Shown: in pieces, positions 3,927 to 40,961 of the stretch
How positions within the stretch are numbered: position 1 is the stretch's first letter
Layout of the letters: each line of letters opens with the position of its first letter
Translations under genes and position numbers: made by a program
Origin: a virus
Reading direction: 5' to 3' (one strand)
Virus record (IMG/VR): IMGVR_UViG_3300027881_000034
Coordinates: 1-41,138 of that record
Length of the DNA stretch: 41,138 nucleotides
The notes under the pieces: generated by a model
What the model saw: the letters and a program-made list of their open reading frames with translations, nothing else
What the model was told of the DNA's origin: nothing
The model's database searches: none

Positions 3927-4505
3927 CTACACTGGGCTGATGAAATCGCGCTTCAATCGAAGCTGGAATGTGAAGCCGAGGCCTGGTACACCACTGCCCA
4001 CCTTCCAGCCGATATAGAACTCGGAATATTTGGAAGAGCTGTTTAACCATGTACGCTTGAACCCAGCAATCCAACCTGTATAACGCCAGCCTGCCGCCGA
4101 GTGTATGCCAAGCCGCACCAAATCGGAGCCCTCTGTATCAAAGGCCCGTGCATCTCCGGATACACGCCAGGACGTCACATCCTCAAACAAGAACCGGTGG
4201 TTATTGACAGGATTGCGGATGGCCATATATGCGAAGCGTAGGCGCCACGGGCTCCAGCCCTCCCCTTCGGGGCCGTACTTCTTGTAATACCACCACGGCA
4301 CATCATGTCCGGATGCGCCAAGCTTAGGGTCAGAGGCGTCCCCGTCGTTTTGCCATATCCATGTCCAACGTGGCCAGGTGTCCATAGCATCGCGGGCGTA
4401 CCATGCGACAATCGGCACGCCCAGGATCCATAGCACAATGTTGACAATACCAACCGGAATCCAGCTTGCTATGTATAAGGCCCCTCGGAATTTATTGATC
4501 TTCAT
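3927..4505 (-). CDS. Phage protein of unknown function with N-terminal membrane segment, possibly DUF7338-like
   Basis: The 192-residue product has one strong hydrophobic segment at residues 9-36 (ALYIASWIPVGIVNIVLWIL), then a tryptophan-rich soluble part (WPRWTWIWQNDGD). The C-terminal third has strand-like alternation and ends in FTFQLRLKRDFISPV, which could be beta-structured. AGGAG lies six bases before the ATG. It sits between the PagL-like gene and small late genes, so both may act at the cell envelope. The Trp-rich WPRWTWIW.ND motif resembles a family of phage proteins of unknown function (possibly DUF7338); I cannot confirm this without a search. Confidence 0.75.
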   Translation of the reverse strand: MKINKFRGALYIASWIPVGIVNIVLWILGVPIVAWYARDAMDTWPRWTWIWQNDGDASDPKLGASGHDVPWWYYKKYGPEGEGWSPWRLRFAYMAIRNPVNNHRFLFEDVTSWRVSGDARAFDTEGSDLVRLGIHSAAGWRYTGWIAGFKRTWLNSSSKYSEFYIGWKVGSGVPGLGFTFQLRLKRDFISPV

Positions 4506-32896: not shown

Positions 32897-33708
32897 GCGC
32901 CTTCCCTTTCCCTTATCCTTCGAAGGTACTCCTCCCGGCCGAGCGTTCGCTTTGTAAAGTCCACCCCGTAGTTTTCTTCCGCCCTAACGTCGATCGGCCA
33001 GATATACTTGTGCATCTGCAAATTGATCCCCACACCAATGTTAGGCATGCCTGCAACAATCATCATCCTAAATAATCGCACGGGCGTCATCATGCCATGC
33101 GCCGGAGAAAAATACATGCGGGCACCAAAAGTCCGTTTGTCATATAAAAGGCGAGCAACCTTGCAGGCCTCATTAAAATCTTCGGTAGTGTCAATGACAA
33201 ACTTCACAACATCACCATGTTGTAGATGACTAAAATGTTGGAGGTCCATGTTGCCTTTAAATTTCGAGGATGGCAATTTCCAATCTACAACGAATGTCAG
33301 CATGCCGAAAGGCGGGCGGAATAAGAGCATGTCTTCGAGGCCGTTCCTAAACTGTATCGTGTCCTGTGTGCCGGCCGTCTCTACTGTGATAAGATAGTCC
33401 TCTTCGATCAGCAGTTTTATAAACAGGTACAGGCCAACCCAGTCCTGCTCTAGCGGTTCCCCCCCTGTCAGTGTCACCTTATGTATGCCGCCGCCTACAT
33501 GCTTCACAACCTCTACCAGTTCGGGAGGTAGGAAGCGGGCTCCGCCTTTAGCACTCCAAGAATATTTTGTGTCGCACCAGTGACAGCCTACAGTACAGCC
33601 AGCAGTACGAACAAATACTGACCAATTTCCTTGGTGCCATAAATTGGCCTCGCCGTCAATGGTTTTATATACGGATAGGATTCCAAGTTCGGTTTTAACA
33701 TTTATCAT
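32893..33708 (-). CDS. queE: QueE, 7-carboxy-7-deazaguanine synthase (radical SAM)
   Basis: QueE makes 7-carboxy-7-deazaguanine from the QueD product. The radical-SAM cluster motif is GCTVGCHWCDTKYSW (C38, C42, C45), followed by KVTLTGGEPLEQ. SVYKTIDGEAN is the conserved start. The Shine-Dalgarno GTGAGGG and three-base-spaced TAAA belong to the same junction type as the accessory genes. At 271 residues it is slightly longer than bacterial QueE. It is the first gene of the replication block after a 178-base gap. Confidence 0.93.
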   Translation of the reverse strand: MINVKTELGILSVYKTIDGEANLWHQGNWSVFVRTAGCTVGCHWCDTKYSWSAKGGARFLPPELVEVVKHVGGGIHKVTLTGGEPLEQDWVGLYLFIKLLIEEDYLITVETAGTQDTIQFRNGLEDMLLFRPPFGMLTFVVDWKLPSSKFKGNMDLQHFSHLQHGDVVKFVIDTTEDFNEACKVARLLYDKRTFGARMYFSPAHGMMTPVRLFRMMIVAGMPNIGVGINLQMHKYIWPIDVRAEENYGVDFTKRTLGREEYLRRIREREGA

Positions 33709-33886
33709 TTTACCCTCACTTTAAAATTGGTCTAGTCTCTCCCAGTGTCACGCATAGTTCGCTTAGGGATAGCCAGGCCCGCGTTCGCCTGTTCCTCGTG
33801 AGGGCGATCACTTGGAATTCTTTGGCCAGTTAATTTTATCAAACACGCGGCGGCCACCCGCGCTCACTCCTAGGAGCTAGTGTGTG
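33709..33886 (-). promoter_or_regulatory. 178-base gap between ParB-like gene and queE
   Basis: No gene is visible. On the minus strand, next to the ParB-like stop, there is a CGCGG/CCGCG hairpin (about 33849-33865) without a clear U-tract and a 10-bp palindrome CTCCTAGGAG (33867-33876). Further on lies AGTGATCGC, also present in the two structured repeats, a CAGGC/GCCTG hairpin, and AAAGTGAGGG as the queE Shine-Dalgarno. A promoter, terminator or ParB-binding site is plausible but no box is convincing. Confidence 0.4.
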
Positions 33887-36433: not shown

Positions 36434-36984
36434 GCTTCGCCCTCCTCAGGGTGCTGCCAGGCCGCCGTAGAACCACCGCTAGACTGGCTGTGATAATAAA
36501 CTTTCCTGCCTTCCCTGTTGGCAATTTCCTGCGCCAATTCCTCAATCCGATCAAACGTTCCTAGTGTCCAATCTTCATCGAGGTGCAACAGGTCCGTGAA
36601 GTCCTTGCGCTGAAAGTAGCTGCCACCTTCCTTAGACATAGCATATGCAAAGGCAATGACGCCTCTCGTATAATGCCGACTCGACAAATCAATTCCGGCA
36701 GCCGCCTTCAAATAACTAGGCGCACATTTGAAGGGCCCGTATAGTACCACGACACCTCCATCGACCAACTTGAATGTACAAGCCGCACCTCCCATCCCGC
36801 GACCGGCCTCCGAGCGCCTGTCCGATCCTGCATATACAAAGTCAGCCGAGTTCTCAACGTCGGCTGCCCATAGCCAATGCTCGCCCTTTACAACGACATG
36901 GTGGAACGTATGCTCCGTCAATTCGCTTTGAGCAAAGGTCAAGTGTTGCGGCCAGGTTGTAAATTTTTCAGGTAAAGCTTTCAT
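36430..36984 (-). CDS. Unknown protein (184 aa)
   Basis: The ATG at 36984 was chosen because the leader GAGGGCAATTACTATG matches the repeated junction element of this region; the in-frame ATG at 36999 lies within the leader. The product has a strand-rich first half (TFHHVVVKGEHWLWAADVEN, FKLVDGGVVVLYGPFK) and a helical end (DRIEELAQEIANREGR). No family recognised. Confidence 0.65.
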   Translation of the reverse strand: MKALPEKFTTWPQHLTFAQSELTEHTFHHVVVKGEHWLWAADVENSADFVYAGSDRRSEAGRGMGGAACTFKLVDGGVVVLYGPFKCAPSYLKAAAGIDLSSRHYTRGVIAFAYAMSKEGGSYFQRKDFTDLLHLDEDWTLGTFDRIEELAQEIANREGRKVYYHSQSSGGSTAAWQHPEEGEA

Positions 36985-36998
36985 AGTAATTGCCCTCA

Positions 36999-37397
36999 TC
37001 AGATTATTGCCGACAGATTAAAATCGACACTTACAACATTGCCGCACTGGCGGCAAACATTCATAGTCTCGCCTGGCATCCCACCAACCTCGTCCAGGTC
37101 CGAGACTCCGCACTTCTTACACATATACTGCACTCGTTGGTAGGCCTTGTGAGCCACCGCAGGAGTACAGCCAGCATGCGTTTCGAACACGCGGTCGATG
37201 CTATCCAGATCCTGCTGTAACTTTGCATCATCCCACTCAGGCCTAAGCTTCTCGCCTTCGTCAACTCGCACCCAATTGTCAAGGCCGTAGTGTATTGTAA
37301 CCTCAGTACCGTTCGGCCTGCAGACAGTTATTTCCTCCCAAGCATAAGGATCATGCGTTGGGCCTTCGCTTCCAGTTTCTATTTGAATACTACTCAT
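36999..37397 (-). CDS. Zinc-ribbon protein of the accessory block (132 aa)
   Basis: The start follows an exact copy of the 18-bp junction element and overlaps the upstream stop (ATGA). CKKCG and CRQCG, 22 residues apart, form a zinc ribbon in the C-terminal half. The N-terminal half is beta-rich (AWEEITVCRPNGTEVTIHYG). Possibly a nucleic-acid or adaptor protein; function unknown. Confidence 0.65.
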   Translation of the reverse strand: MSSIQIETGSEGPTHDPYAWEEITVCRPNGTEVTIHYGLDNWVRVDEGEKLRPEWDDAKLQQDLDSIDRVFETHAGCTPAVAHKAYQRVQYMCKKCGVSDLDEVGGMPGETMNVCRQCGNVVSVDFNLSAII

Positions 37398-37597
37398 TGT
37401 GATGCCCTCACTTTGGCTTCTCTGATTATTCCTCTAGCATGCCGCTCTACAATAGCGACCGCCGTCGGGCTTGTGTTGCCTGTCAATTGCTTCGCATATT
37501 CCTTGGAAAATTGAAGCACCTCGTCAGGGCCGAACCCATCCTCGGCCATCAGCTCGAGAACAAGTGCCCTAGTAATCTGCTTGGTGTTTACTGTCAT
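37394..37597 (-). CDS. Small hypothetical protein (67 aa)
   Basis: AGGAG is six bases before the ATG. Its last codons (V-R-A-S-Q-stop) are encoded by the junction element used to start the next gene, giving an ATGA overlap. The product is helical (ALVLELMAEDGFGPDEVLQF). Function unknown. Confidence 0.6.
   Translation of the reverse strand: MTVNTKQITRALVLELMAEDGFGPDEVLQFSKEYAKQLTGNTSPTAVAIVERHARGIIREAKVRASQ
37395..37412 (-). promoter_or_regulatory. Junction element, exact copy, translated at its end
   Basis: AGTGAGGGCATCACAATG. Here the upstream gene reads through the element as V-R-A-S-Q-stop, ending by ATGA overlap, so the same bases serve as protein code, Shine-Dalgarno and start. Confidence 0.85.
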
Positions 37598-37606
37598 AGC
37601 TTTCTC

Positions 37607-37852
37607 CTACTTCAGCTTTTCAACAGTTATGCCAAACAGCTCATCGTCTGTCACCATAACAGTAGCCGTCCACTCAGTCCTTGTTAGGAAGGCCGTGTTC
37701 AAATTAACGTCGAACTTCTTGTCCAACGTGAGATGCTCGACTGCCTTGCCGAGCTCGTGTGCCGCGAACTTCATGGCCGACTTCAAACACGGCTTGTTAA
37801 TCTGCCGATAGATTTGGCCGTCGCGATAAATTGTAACTCGTTGTGTGCTCAT
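37607..37852 (-). CDS. Small hypothetical protein (81 aa)
   Basis: The start at 37852 follows a variant of the junction element (AGTGAGGGCACCATTATG); an earlier in-frame start lies inside the element and is rejected. The product begins MSTQRVTIYRDGQIYRQIN, mostly strand-like, then helix and strands. Function unknown. Confidence 0.6.
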   Translation of the reverse strand: MSTQRVTIYRDGQIYRQINKPCLKSAMKFAAHELGKAVEHLTLDKKFDVNLNTAFLTRTEWTATVMVTDDELFGITVEKLK

Positions 37853-37867
37853 AATGGTGCCCTCACT
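37850..37867 (-). promoter_or_regulatory. Junction element, variant AGTGAGGGCACCATTATG
   Basis: Stop (TGA of the upstream gene), Shine-Dalgarno and start are kept; the sequence between them differs from the exact copies by three bases. Confidence 0.7.
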
Positions 37868-38096
37868 TTTCATCTTCTGGATAGTTTTGATGTAACCAGG
37901 CCGCTATACCCTGCTGCCTAGCATCCCAAGAACAATGCGCCGAGCCGTGCCAATAAAATTCTTCGCTCGGTACTTGGAACTCGCCCTGCCTGTCATACAT
38001 ATAGGACCAGGCACCCTTCAAACGCTTCTGCTGCTCGCGAGTTAAGGATTGCCGAACCGTCCTCAGTAATGCTTGACAAAATGAATGGTCTGCCAT
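37863..38096 (-). CDS. Small hypothetical protein (77 aa)
   Basis: AGGAG is six bases before the ATG. The product is helical at first (SFCQALLRTVRQSLTREQQK) and contains Trp and His (EFYWHGSAHCSWD). Its TGA stop is part of the next junction element. Function unknown. Confidence 0.6.
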   Translation of the reverse strand: MADHSFCQALLRTVRQSLTREQQKRLKGAWSYMYDRQGEFQVPSEEFYWHGSAHCSWDARQQGIAAWLHQNYPEDEK

Positions 38097-38105
38097 GTCG
38101 TTCTC

Positions 38106-38342
38106 CTATCGCATCGGGATGCTAAAGATATCGGCCAGAGCCGTACAGTTATCAAAACCGACGCGGATGCCATGCTTCCTCATGTTCTCAAACATATCGC
38201 GGTCGACAACATACCATGTCTCTCGCTGATGTTTGTCCATGCCTTTCGGATCCCGCGCCACAATTACTGGCTGACCTGATCCACGTTTTGTCCAACGAGC
38301 TTCCAGCCCGGCCTCTCTAAACGTTCCTACTCGGTATTTCAT
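38106..38342 (-). CDS. Small hypothetical protein (78 aa)
   Basis: The start follows a variant junction element (AGTGAGGGCATCATTATG). The product is basic (YRVGTFREAGLEARWTKRG) with a later helix (RDMFENMRKHGIRVGFD). It lies just downstream of one copy of the two-hairpin repeat. Function unknown. Confidence 0.6.
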   Translation of the reverse strand: MKYRVGTFREAGLEARWTKRGSGQPVIVARDPKGMDKHQRETWYVVDRDMFENMRKHGIRVGFDNCTALADIFSIPMR

Positions 38343-38357
38343 AATGATGCCCTCACT
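38340..38357 (-). promoter_or_regulatory. Junction element, variant AGTGAGGGCATCATTATG
   Basis: Two bases differ from the five exact copies elsewhere in this block (AC to TT in the CA part). The Shine-Dalgarno GAGGG and ATG spacing are kept. It lies a few bases after a two-hairpin repeat. Confidence 0.7.
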
Positions 38358-38361
38358 ATAC

Positions 38362-38418
38362 GTTATGGGATGATTCCCAACAAGCCCGCTCGTTAGAACG
38401 GGCTTGGTGCGATCACTC
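38362..38418 (-). repeat. Structured two-hairpin repeat, copy 1
   Basis: Between two genes and overlapping the upstream stop. On the minus strand: GAGTGATCGCACC, an 8-bp stem (38381-38388 with 38399-38406) with a 10-base loop, then a short GGGAATCATCCC inverted repeat. The flanks are identical to copy 2 at 40201-40259. Two stem pairs differ between the copies and both are compensated, which supports a real RNA (or DNA) structure. Confidence 0.8.
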
Positions 38419-38892
38419 GGCCTGTCTCTTCCTCAGGAAACCTGCCTCTATCTCAACCGCTTCCCTCTCGTCTGCACATTCTTTGATAAACTGGGCCCAC
38501 CGGAGTAGGTCAGTCCCAAGGCTGATTGCTTCGTCCGGCTCCAAAAATGTCTGCAAGTCTTCGATATAGCAGACATCCCTGCCGTCCGAAAGCCTACCCG
38601 CTTTGGTTGTGGCATAGTCTTTTGTCAGCCACGTGTAATCAGTTGCGGCAGGGTCGGTCGGGTTGGTTTTGCTTGTTGCTGTCATAATAGGCTCCTCAAT
38701 TTGCGAGCAAAGATACTCGTCAACTATCCTGCAGGACCTCTCCGAAGAGATGCTGTGCTCTGCATGCTCTTTAGCGAGTGCCGCAATCGACTTCATCGAC
38801 AGCTGGCCATCCCTCTCTATAACGTCGCCAACATGCGGCGCTATGTCCTCGGCTACTTTCTTCAGTGCCGCTTCGCTTAATCTAAATCCCAT
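38413..38892 (-). CDS. Unknown helical protein (159 aa), maybe with an internal start
   Basis: The first ATG follows a junction-like leader (TGTGAGGGTAATATCATG). The product is largely helical (EAALKKVAEDIAPHVGDVIE) and acidic near the end. Inside, GAGGAGCCTATTATG precedes M70 (MTATSKTNPTDPAATDY), so a shorter second product (38413-38685) may also be made. No family recognised. Its end overlaps the two-hairpin repeat. Confidence 0.6.
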   Translation of the reverse strand: MGFRLSEAALKKVAEDIAPHVGDVIERDGQLSMKSIAALAKEHAEHSISSERSCRIVDEYLCSQIEEPIMTATSKTNPTDPAATDYTWLTKDYATTKAGRLSDGRDVCYIEDLQTFLEPDEAISLGTDLLRWAQFIKECADEREAVEIEAGFLRKRQAE

Positions 38893-38919
38893 GATATTAC
38901 CCTCACAAGTGAGACCGCC

Positions 38920-39855
38920 CTATGCGGCCTCCTGATACTCTTCCTGTTCCTTCTTCCGCTTCTCAGCGAGTTCCGGAATAAGAAATTCCACAGCGAATGC
39001 ACTAAGGCGGGAGGCCTTAAAGATTAAGCTGTGGTCGTTTTTCAAAGCTTTGATCCAGGATTGGACATAACTTGCGTGGTTCGGCATCTCAGAACTGACA
39101 CCGTGTATGTTACACAGCATCGCGGCGCCAATCTCTGCCACCAGTTCCTCAAATGCATAGTCCTCAGAACCAAACGAGGTGAAGCCCGTAATGCCTACTC
39201 GGGCTAGTCGATCCTTGTGTCCGGTCCAATGCACAAGCTCATGCAGACCTGTTGCTGCGAAGCCCTCTGCCGATTTAAACCGCTCCGGTTTCGGCACTTC
39301 AATGTGGTCTGTAGTCGGAGCGTAGAACGCGCGGCCACCATTAAACTTGACAGTGGCTCCGGCGTCCTTCATAAACGACAACGTATTGTCGATGATAAGC
39401 TCATCGGCAGGCACAATGTCGTCCTCTTCCATCGGCTGTTCACGCTTCGGCAGCTTCGCGTCTTCCGTCTGCTCGATGTTAAACACGGGGAAGGTCCGCA
39501 GCATGAAAATCTTGCGCTTCTTTTCCTCGTTACCTGGGTCGTTGTCGTCCTTGATAAAGATCGGCTTGGTAAAAACTACCATGGTCGACTTCTCACCCTT
39601 CCGCACGTGGCCGCCAGCTTTCTTACACTGTTTAAACGTCAACCACTGTGCTGTGCTGTATCCCTTAGCATCCTGCACGACCCACAAGTACGGCACGTTG
39701 ATGCCCCGATACTCATGTCCGGTAATGCAGTTATGCGGCATAGCGGATCCAGCTGTGCCAGTCCACGGTCGCTGCCATGGGTTCGTGCCTGCTTCAAGCG
39801 CCGCCACGATTGTGTCGGTTACAAGCTTCCTAATTTTATCTGCTGTCATTTTCAT
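38920..39855 (-). CDS. ardC: ArdC-like antirestriction protein (ssDNA-binding plus zinc metalloprotease-like domain)
   Basis: The start at 39855 follows an exact junction element; an apparent upstream extension is not coding by this logic. The N-terminal domain (AALEAGTNPWQRPWTG, RGINVPYLWV, WLTFKQCKKAGG, VRKGEKSTMVVF) is typical of ArdC/TraC ssDNA-binding domains. The C-terminal domain has GLHELVHWTGH (HELVH at 205-209) and FEELVAEIGAAML, the zinc-ligand pattern of its metallopeptidase-like part. Known ArdC proteins protect incoming DNA from host restriction. An early position is consistent with this. Confidence 0.88.
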   Translation of the reverse strand: MKMTADKIRKLVTDTIVAALEAGTNPWQRPWTGTAGSAMPHNCITGHEYRGINVPYLWVVQDAKGYSTAQWLTFKQCKKAGGHVRKGEKSTMVVFTKPIFIKDDNDPGNEEKKRKIFMLRTFPVFNIEQTEDAKLPKREQPMEEDDIVPADELIIDNTLSFMKDAGATVKFNGGRAFYAPTTDHIEVPKPERFKSAEGFAATGLHELVHWTGHKDRLARVGITGFTSFGSEDYAFEELVAEIGAAMLCNIHGVSSEMPNHASYVQSWIKALKNDHSLIFKASRLSAFAVEFLIPELAEKRKKEQEEYQEAA

Positions 39856-39870
39856 TGTGATGCCCTCACT
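39853..39870 (-). promoter_or_regulatory. Junction element, exact copy before ardC-like gene
   Basis: AGTGAGGGCATCACAATG. The TGA is the stop of the upstream gene, GAGGG the Shine-Dalgarno, and ATG the start of the ardC-like gene, so one 18-bp block ends one gene and starts the next. Confidence 0.85.
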
Positions 39871-40183
39871 TTGCCGAACGGTTAAGAATCCGATGTTCAA
39901 ATGAGCTGGATTCGCTATGATTAAGATGCCATGCATCATCGGCCGCATGACTCGCCATGCCTTGCAAGGTCTGTAACGAGTGGCCAATGCACTCAAGCTC
40001 TGTACAAACTTCACGTTGCATATTTAGCTCGGCCGTTGTTGCACCTTGCCACTTGTCCTTGAGATTGTCGCTGTACCTCTCATCCAAATCTGAGACAGTC
40101 TCATCAAGCCGAGTATGCATTTGATACAAGGCATGCTGTAAGGCCTGTATGTCGGCCACGATCTTTGCTGTTACAAGTTTCAT
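39866..40183 (-). CDS. Helical coiled-coil protein (105 aa)
   Basis: The start follows an exact junction element. The product is helical (IVADIQALQHALYQMHTRLD, then SDLDERYSDNLKDKWQG) with a His/Ser-rich C-terminal part. Its TGA stop lies inside the next junction element. Function unknown. Confidence 0.65.
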   Translation of the reverse strand: MKLVTAKIVADIQALQHALYQMHTRLDETVSDLDERYSDNLKDKWQGATTAELNMQREVCTELECIGHSLQTLQGMASHAADDAWHLNHSESSSFEHRILNRSAK

Positions 40184-40198
40184 TGTGATGCCCTCACT
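40181..40198 (-). promoter_or_regulatory. Junction element, exact copy
   Basis: AGTGAGGGCATCACAATG, lying two bases after the second two-hairpin repeat. Here the upstream stop is not inside the element. Confidence 0.85.
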
Positions 40199-40200
40199 TT

Positions 40201-40259
40201 GTTATGGGATGATTCCCAACAAGCACACTGCCGAAACAATGTGCTTGGTGCGATCACTC
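40201..40259 (-). repeat. Structured two-hairpin repeat, copy 2
   Basis: The 8-bp stem is 40220-40227 with 40240-40247, with a 12-base loop. Compared with copy 1, two base pairs of the stem are changed on both sides, while the flanks (GTTATGGGATGATTCCCAA and TTGGTGCGATCACTC on the plus strand) are identical. It overlaps the end of the upstream gene. No U-tract follows, so a simple terminator is unlikely. Confidence 0.8.
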
Positions 40260-40502
40260 CGAAGTCACTACGTTAACCACTCCGAGTGCTACGCCGCCCG
40301 ACAGACCGAGTGCATCCACAATAAATTCGCGGACGTTTTCTTCGGCCTCCTCAACCGAATCCACAAAGCCGTATCGAATGTTATCCGAATCCAGCAATTC
40401 GAACGGCTTGCCAGGCGTTCGAAATAATTGCCGGACCTCGTCATTGGGATCGGTGCGATCCTGTATCACATACGTGACGCTTGCTGTAATTACTTTCTTC
40501 AT
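40254..40502 (-). CDS. Small hypothetical protein (82 aa)
   Basis: The ATG at 40502 follows a variant junction element (AGTGAGGGAGATCGACATG). The product begins MKKVITASVTYVIQDRTDPN, a strand pair, then an acidic helix (VDSVEEAEENVREFIVDALG). It ends at the two-hairpin repeat. Function unknown. Confidence 0.65.
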   Translation of the reverse strand: MKKVITASVTYVIQDRTDPNDEVRQLFRTPGKPFELLDSDNIRYGFVDSVEEAEENVREFIVDALGLSGGVALGVVNVVTSE

Positions 40503-40513
40503 GTCGATCTCCC

Positions 40514-40738
40514 TCACTTGCTGTCGAATGTAACGCCGCCCATCATCATGCCGCGGTCGTGCTTGTAAAACTCTTTCTGGTTTTCCGCATCGGCGTAAAT
40601 TTTAGCAGCGGCCTCAGTATTAAATGTCCTGTTGCCGTTGCTGCCATGGTACTTGCTGTCCGCAACGATCCACTCGTAGCGTGTTAAATGCTCGTGGACC
40701 GTGTAGCGCGGTTTGTATGTGTTTTTAAACTGTGCCAT
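40514..40738 (-). CDS. Small hypothetical protein (74 aa)
   Basis: The start is the ATG of an exact junction element; upstream in-frame codons belong to the previous gene's DNA. The product begins MAQFKNTYKPRYTVHEHLTR and is a small mixed domain with Tyr and His. Its TGA stop (after AAG) starts the next junction. Function unknown. Confidence 0.65.
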   Translation of the reverse strand: MAQFKNTYKPRYTVHEHLTRYEWIVADSKYHGSNGNRTFNTEAAAKIYADAENQKEFYKHDRGMMMGGVTFDSK

Positions 40739-40753
40739 TGTGATGCCCTCACT
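40736..40753 (-). promoter_or_regulatory. Junction element, exact copy
   Basis: AGTGAGGGCATCACAATG. Contains the TGA stop of the 65-residue upstream gene, the Shine-Dalgarno and the next ATG. Confidence 0.85.
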
Positions 40754-40946
40754 GTTTAATATTTTCAGGACCGAAGCAAACTCCAAACTTACGGCCTTCG
40801 TCTTCATCCATGTACTCACCGGCATATGGCCCGGCAGGCATTGGATAAGTAGTCTCGGTCACAACTACCGAGACACCGTTCATCCACTTGTGCTTGCATT
40901 TCTGCAGGATGATTGTGTCGCCAACTTTTACTGTATTCGTTTTCAT
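40749..40946 (-). CDS. Small protein with beta-barrel-like pattern (65 aa)
   Basis: The start follows an exact junction element. The product (MKTNTVKVGDTIILQKCKHK, then GVSVVVTETTYPMP) looks like a small beta barrel, ending with RKFGVCFGPENIKQ. It could bind nucleic acid, as KOW-like folds do, but no specific motif is seen. Confidence 0.65.
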   Translation of the reverse strand: MKTNTVKVGDTIILQKCKHKWMNGVSVVVTETTYPMPAGPYAGEYMDEDEGRKFGVCFGPENIKQ

Positions 40947-40961
40947 TGTGATGCCCTCACT
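40944..40961 (-). promoter_or_regulatory. Junction element, exact copy
   Basis: AGTGAGGGCATCACAATG, following the partial gene at the right edge by a few bases. Confidence 0.85.

Follow-up and report, generated by a model that had tools for sequence, protein, structure and literature searches.

Why should one short string of nucleotides recur, letter for letter, immediately before a series of genes that are mostly unrelated to one another? The question is raised by a virus genome, IMG/VR record IMGVR_UViG_3300027881_000034, whose complete 41,138 bp form the window analyzed here and which may cover the genome only in part. In this window, the string AGTGAGGGCATCACAATG (hereafter the element) runs into the starts of small genes, numbered with a g, of an early accessory block. 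A first-pass annotation had proposed that the element serves as a shared control, perhaps by way of a small hairpin, or as a recombination seam at which genes are swapped. We conclude, with a probability of roughly two in three, that it is a phage-specific start-associated sequence (SAS), a fixed translation-initiation cassette reused before about 10 small early accessory genes.

Element copies are locked to start codons

The element is present in five exact copies, or in seven if up to three mismatches are allowed, and all of these are on the minus strand, which is the coding strand. Dinucleotide shuffles predict 0.04 copies, and none of 100 shuffles gave seven. All seven end with the start codon of a block gene. 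A looser form, (G/A)TGAGGG followed by 4–8 nt and ATG, begins four further genes (g4, g7, g13, and queE), which correspond to the variants annotated at 40502, 38892, 36984, and 33708. The exact copies and variants of the first-pass annotation were all recovered, with its positions falling on the A of each ATG. Of the 12 minus-strand occurrences of the heptamer GTGAGGG, 10 are at block gene starts or queE; its only plus-strand occurrence, at 33798, is an inverted copy within the queE leader. The element is confined to the block at 37–41 kb and to queE, and is found at none of the called replication or packaging genes.

Exact copies match over 18 bp and scarcely further, the bases just before them being AACAG or CAAAG, and the genes downstream from them are mostly unrelated. 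The Shine-Dalgarno core of the element is GAGG, which in the exact copies lies 8 nt from the ATG. The earlier proposal that the TGA doubles as the stop codon of the upstream gene holds at four junctions (genes ending at 40749, 40514, 39866, and 37863). At the copy spanning 37395–37412, the upstream gene is translated through the element and terminates in an ATGA overlap.

In a cassette of this kind, (A)GTGAGGGC would be joined to the ATG by a short spacer. Through the built-in UGA, the upstream gene would end 8–9 nt before the next start, and the terminating ribosome could be recaptured there. Many genes on one early polycistronic transcript would then be translated in a coupled fashion and at similar levels. 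Duplication, or recombination between repeats, may maintain the identity of the copies within a phage.

A core shared among relatives and a spacer particular to each phage

Relatives, all uncultured, were collected by a search with the neighboring helicase, which returned contigs at 65–69% identity and one 78% fragment, and by a DnaB-like helicase alignment search, which added contigs L051 (82%) and L053 (63%). Their accessory blocks share orthologs of g1, g4, ArdC, g7, g10, g12, g14, g15, the ParB-like gene, and queE, in altered order and with other genes interspersed. The g7 gene of the window (38413–38892) is a fusion of two open reading frames (ORFs), which are separate neighbors in L051 (418–618 and 615–833).

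A motif search in these phages recovered the element at orthologous gene starts, in a spelling of each phage's own. It precedes ArdC in three of three phages, g12 in two of two, and g10 in two of three; at g14 it is present in three relatives and missing from the window. L009 carries GTGAGGGCATTACTATG three times and CTGAGGGCATTACTATG, a CTGAGGG copy, once, and L036 carries GTGAGGGCAATCACAATG and GTGAGGGCAAGATCATG twice each. The spellings in L051 are GTGAGGGCATTACTATG and CTGAGGGCAACACTATG, and that in L038 is GTGAGGGCAACACTATG. In L009 and L051, too, the TGA of the element serves as an upstream stop codon.

The GTGAGGGC portion is retained across phages whose proteins share only 50–70% identity. 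Identical spacers were found in 18 of 84 within-genome pairs versus five of 322 between-genome pairs, and none of 20,000 label shuffles reached 18. Orthologous starts had an identical spacer in two of 14 comparisons. Because identical spacers are enriched within genomes and rare at orthologous starts, the copies appear to have been homogenized inside each phage. As judged by sequence comparison, GTGAGGGC is conserved between phages and the remainder of the element is apparently homogenized per genome. The shared control suggested at the outset is supported in the form of a translation-start signal that is conserved beyond the Shine-Dalgarno core and kept at orthologous genes of relatives.

Scanning IMG/VR for the exact 18-mer gave one match elsewhere (L001), which was rejected as an element copy because it belongs to an unrelated terminator-like hairpin. 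A scan for CATCCCATAAC...TGAGGG gave genuine matches only in L036, the other 10 being due to chance.

Extended upstream hairpins and gene exchange

Roughly 55–60 nt upstream of the element before g5 and g8 (termed W1 and W2) recur in L036 before two genes (R1 and R2). This extension is predicted to fold into a long hairpin; its 5′ arm starts at the stop codon of the preceding gene (GAGTGA), and its 3′ arm holds the invariant GGGAATCATCCC. Minimum free energies for the four copies range from −28 to −33 kcal/mol (z −3.8, −4.5, −1.7, and −3.5). Both partners have changed in three of the 19 pairs, 96% of cells are paired versus 31–47% in slid controls, and the covariation score was matched by two of 500 shuffles. 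These compensatory changes are suggestive, though not proof, of RNA pairing in the extension.

Orthologous g4 genes precede the first extension (W1/R1), as orthologous g7 genes do the second (W2/R2). Downstream from them lie g5 and g8 in the window, and a g10 homolog and an unrelated 153-amino-acid gene in L036. Because the upstream genes and the element are orthologous but the downstream genes are unrelated, gene replacement appears to have occurred at the two extended copies. The comparison thus supports the exchange of genes at element joints. Of the recombination seam put forward in the first-pass annotation, the swap of the gene after the ATG stands at both extended copies, and recombination as its mechanism is what we infer. 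A different hairpin, also present twice, is found in L009, where one copy likewise follows g4.

The extended hairpin most likely separates or stabilizes segments of the mRNA. It may signal processing or weak termination of the transcript or affect its stability. Neither intrinsic terminators nor sigma-70 promoters were detected at the elements beyond chance. Translational coupling via the hairpin, in which a ribosome on the upstream stop codon alters access to the Shine-Dalgarno sequence, was modeled and rejected, with no consistent change in the four copies. Neither the element with its extension nor either architecture of the queE leader (see below) matched the Rfam 15 covariance models.

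Comparison with known start-associated sequences

SAS and extended SAS (ESAS) were described in 2011 for cluster K mycobacteriophages, with a few other phages added later; what they do is still considered unclear (PMC11373665). In cluster K mycobacteriophages, the SAS is a 13-bp repeat at the ribosome-binding site (RBS) with consensus GGGATAGGAGCCC, present in 11–19 copies that are restricted to the non-structural arm and precede genes of unrelated families (PMC3203893). Its conservation extends past the Shine-Dalgarno core, an upstream stop codon sometimes lies within it, and in K1 genomes one copy has the opposite orientation (PMC3203893). About half of the copies have an upstream inverted-repeat extension, the ESAS, for whose pairing as RNA the authors find little support (PMC3203893).

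The window element resembles this repeat in its place at the RBS immediately before the start codon, in its non-structural restriction, in its conservation past the bases that pair with 16S rRNA, in the unrelated gene families that it precedes, in sometimes containing the upstream stop codon, in having an inverted copy, and in its retention at the orthologous starts listed above. It differs in sequence, in that the window has GTGAGGGCATCACAATG (GTGAGGGCANYACWATG-like) and relatives have their own versions, and in having a phage-specific spacer in the window clade. As with ESAS, an inverted repeat with a variable spacer lies upstream of some copies, two in the window and two in L036. Unlike ESAS, the extension in this clade is a single hairpin with RNA-type compensatory changes, only two of 11 window copies are extended, and no SigA/sigma-70-like promoter such as that in the ESAS of Adephagia is found in the window extensions.

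Other repeats of this general kind are also distinct. In Microbacterium cluster EF phages, the motif is 13 bp long (GGGAAAGGACCCC), stands at the RBS in 10 copies, and has a linked upstream motif; the sequence is different, the upstream motif is centered on GTAGAG, and no hairpin is described in the text consulted (PMC7302621). Citrobacter phage Mordin has a 26-bp SAS-like repeat before eight hypothetical genes in one genome arm, with the sequence CCAACAATCCTAAACTGGAGAATCTA and no reported extension (PMC4611695). In Corndog (cluster O), many 17-bp repeats often lie at gene borders, with deletions inferred between copies; these are perfect palindromes whose orientation is meaningless and which are not fixed to a start codon (PMC4351075). 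By analogy, the window element is SAS-like in anatomy, lies outside that sequence family, and looks like a new lineage of SAS.

Alternative explanations

Several observations weigh against a dedicated initiation cassette. The Shine-Dalgarno match is just 4 nt long, and conservation of the spacer is unaccounted for by pairing with 16S rRNA. Because g9, g11, and g14 start without the element, it is not required. The extended copies number only four and come from two genomes, and of the tests for homogenization, that on mean edit distance was not significant (p 0.078) and only that on identical copies was. There is a modest chance that the copies are ordinary RBSs, alike through recent cassette copying or chance convergence, and that their function is that of a Shine-Dalgarno sequence only. 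The spacer does vary freely from phage to phage, and several other phage contigs carry repeated strings of an RBS and ATG, which indicates that phage-specific repeated starts are not rare. However, the copies mostly stand before mutually unrelated genes, which are hence not gene duplicates, and simple convergence sits poorly with the retention of GTGAGGGC between such divergent phages. It is rather improbable that the element acts at the DNA level, as an operator, promoter, or recombination site whose placement at starts is secondary. Such a site would agree with the differing gene content at both extended copies and with the SigA-like promoters in cluster K ESAS (PMC11373665), but W1 and W2 lack sigma-70-like sites, the region shows no excess of them (six versus 6.3 expected), and a DNA site would have no need to be strand specific and locked to a start codon. 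A recombination role is, in any case, compatible with one in translation.

We also consider unlikely the translational switch suggested in the first-pass annotation, wherein GTGA and TCAC form a small hairpin that hides or exposes the ribosome site or binds a phage RNA-binding regulator. A 4-bp stem is possible in 10 of 20 distinct element forms versus 4.2 expected with shuffled spacers, in a test that is generous as the forms share ancestry. The L009 copy at 4049 retains GTGAGGGCGACTCAC despite a more distant start codon, and the outer bases of cluster K SAS are likewise symmetric, GGG...CCC (PMC3203893). Although pairing can thus be drawn, its predicted energies are only 0 to about −4 kcal/mol (−3.7 to −3.9 for the main form), and shuffled sequences fold just as well as the window copies do (z −0.2 and +0.5). 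The arm is lost or weakened in the variants at 40502, 37852, and 33708 and in L034 and L035, and the GTG side of the stem is invariant across forms, leaving no covariation to read. Among the proteins scanned, a subset of the ORFs, there was no RegA-like regulator.

The queE leader

The window phage encodes FolE, QueD, QueE, QueC-like, and TGT/DpdA-like proteins. FolE, QueD, QueE, and QueC-like and DpdA-like proteins constitute a route to 7-deazaguanine DNA bases. Upstream of queE, the pattern AATTCCAAGTGA..GCCCTCAC is common to six phages and slightly altered in a seventh, L034. The leader has the core AATTCCAAGTGATCGCCCTCAC and takes two architectures among the seven phages. In bacterial and archaeal genomes, the leader pattern had one match, which lacked the rest of the leader. 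The queE leader is a candidate new regulatory RNA, and because the phage encodes the 7-deazaguanine pathway, it is a fair hypothesis that the leader senses a product of this pathway.

One segment of the leader is a near-perfect reverse complement of the element. In six phages it is located about 100 nt before the start codon; in L034, an inserted ORF follows it. The inverted copy GUGAUCGCCCUCAC is kept in five phages, the window phage among them, and two others have it in slightly altered form. The extra ORF of L034 (∼728–1157), between the leader motif and queE, possibly encodes an HNH-type endonuclease, as judged by eye. In the window and L051, the segment is predicted to base-pair with the ribosome site of queE itself, in cis. 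It can also pair in silico in trans with all element-bearing block starts, in predicted duplexes of −18 to −26 kcal/mol, versus −8 to −17 kcal/mol for most element-less genes; g14 is an exception at −24 kcal/mol. These predictions allow for a single RNA regulon in which, upon transcription of queE, the inverted copy pairs in trans with the RBS elements of about 10 early genes and silences them, or else sponges a regulator. We regard this model as a long shot; more simply, the segment would only fold in cis within the leader.

Genomic setting and other repeated starts

No DNA-level similarity of the window to known phages was found, protein relatives among named phages are remote only, and a search of bacterial and archaeal genomes with the helicase gave no match. 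On the minus strand, portal and terminase genes are at the low-coordinate end, and genes for replication and recombination (DNA polymerase, clamp, clamp loader, UvsX, SbcCD, DnaB-like helicase, and primase) occupy the middle. Beyond these are queE, a ParB-like gene, an HU-like gene, and then the small accessory genes, including the ArdC-like antirestriction gene. The features discussed here are collected in Table 1.

Table 1. Positions of element copies, extensions, queE leaders, and repeated starts in other phages
Feature	Location	Strand
Exact copy, start of g2 (65 amino acids)	40944..40961	minus
Exact copy, start of g3; TGA is g2 stop	40736..40753	minus
Variant AGTGAGGGAGATCGACATG, start of g4; TGA is g3 stop	40500..40518	minus
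W1, extended upstream element: hairpin from g4 stop codon, conserved TTGGGAATCATCCCATAAC	40199..40260	minus
Exact copy, start of g5, W1 directly upstream	40181..40198	minus
Exact copy, start of ArdC-like antirestriction gene; TGA is g5 stop	39853..39870	minus
Variant TGTGAGGGTAATATCATG, start of g7	38890..38907	minus
W2, extended upstream element: hairpin from g7 stop codon and TTGGGAATCATCCCATAAC	38362..38418	minus
Two-mismatch copy, start of g8, W2 upstream	38340..38357	minus
Three-mismatch copy, start of g10; TGA is g9 stop	37850..37867	minus
Exact copy, start of g12 (132 amino acids, zinc-ribbon-like CxxC...CxxC by eye)	37395..37412	minus
Variant ATGAGGGCAATTACTATG, start of g13	36982..36999	minus
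GTGATCGCCCTCAC, inverted (antisense) element copy in queE leader, conserved in relatives	33798..33811	minus
5′ leader of queE, a predicted structured RNA without an Rfam match	33709..33825	minus
Short variant AGTGAGGGTAAAATG, start of queE	33706..33720	minus
queE leader in L051	4205-4327	
queE leader in L036	5323-5433	
queE leader in L009	10652-10762	
queE leader in L038	3544-3650	
queE leader in L053	2132-2242	
queE leader in L034	615-730	
Own repeated RBS and ATG strings, L054	12800-17335	
Own repeated RBS and ATG strings, L091	6298-6616	
Own repeated RBS and ATG strings, L094	11818-14080	
Own repeated RBS and ATG strings, L020		
Own repeated RBS and ATG strings, L033		

Two further features were observed near these genes. 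Upstream of the accessory block in L009 (∼2740–2960) and L036 (∼30–215), about 190 nt of non-coding sequence are strongly conserved. This stretch, CTGAGGACTTAGCACCCC...AAAAGCGCATTCG.GAGAGTGTG.TTTT, ends in a terminator-like hairpin, has no Rfam match at E<1, and is a candidate phage non-coding RNA. A CGTATAG(T/C)T-like motif, possibly a shared promoter, precedes HU/ParB-like genes in L009 (9380–9400), L036 (∼4050), L038 (∼2190), and the window (∼35440).

Among 126 screened loci, a survey for 14-nt strings of an RBS and ATG with at least three copies yielded examples such as ATAGGAGGAGAT(C/T)ATG, present 10 times in L054, and ATAGTGAGGGTGAAATG, present three times in L091. This small survey suggests that start-associated repeats are widespread, more so than the literature consulted implies.

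Implications

The existence of a separate lineage with the anatomy of SAS, its own spellings, and covariation in its extension argues for repeated origins of such sequences and for an action that is, at least in part, at the level of RNA. If the joints also serve in gene exchange, this would help explain how phages take up small accessory genes and express them immediately.

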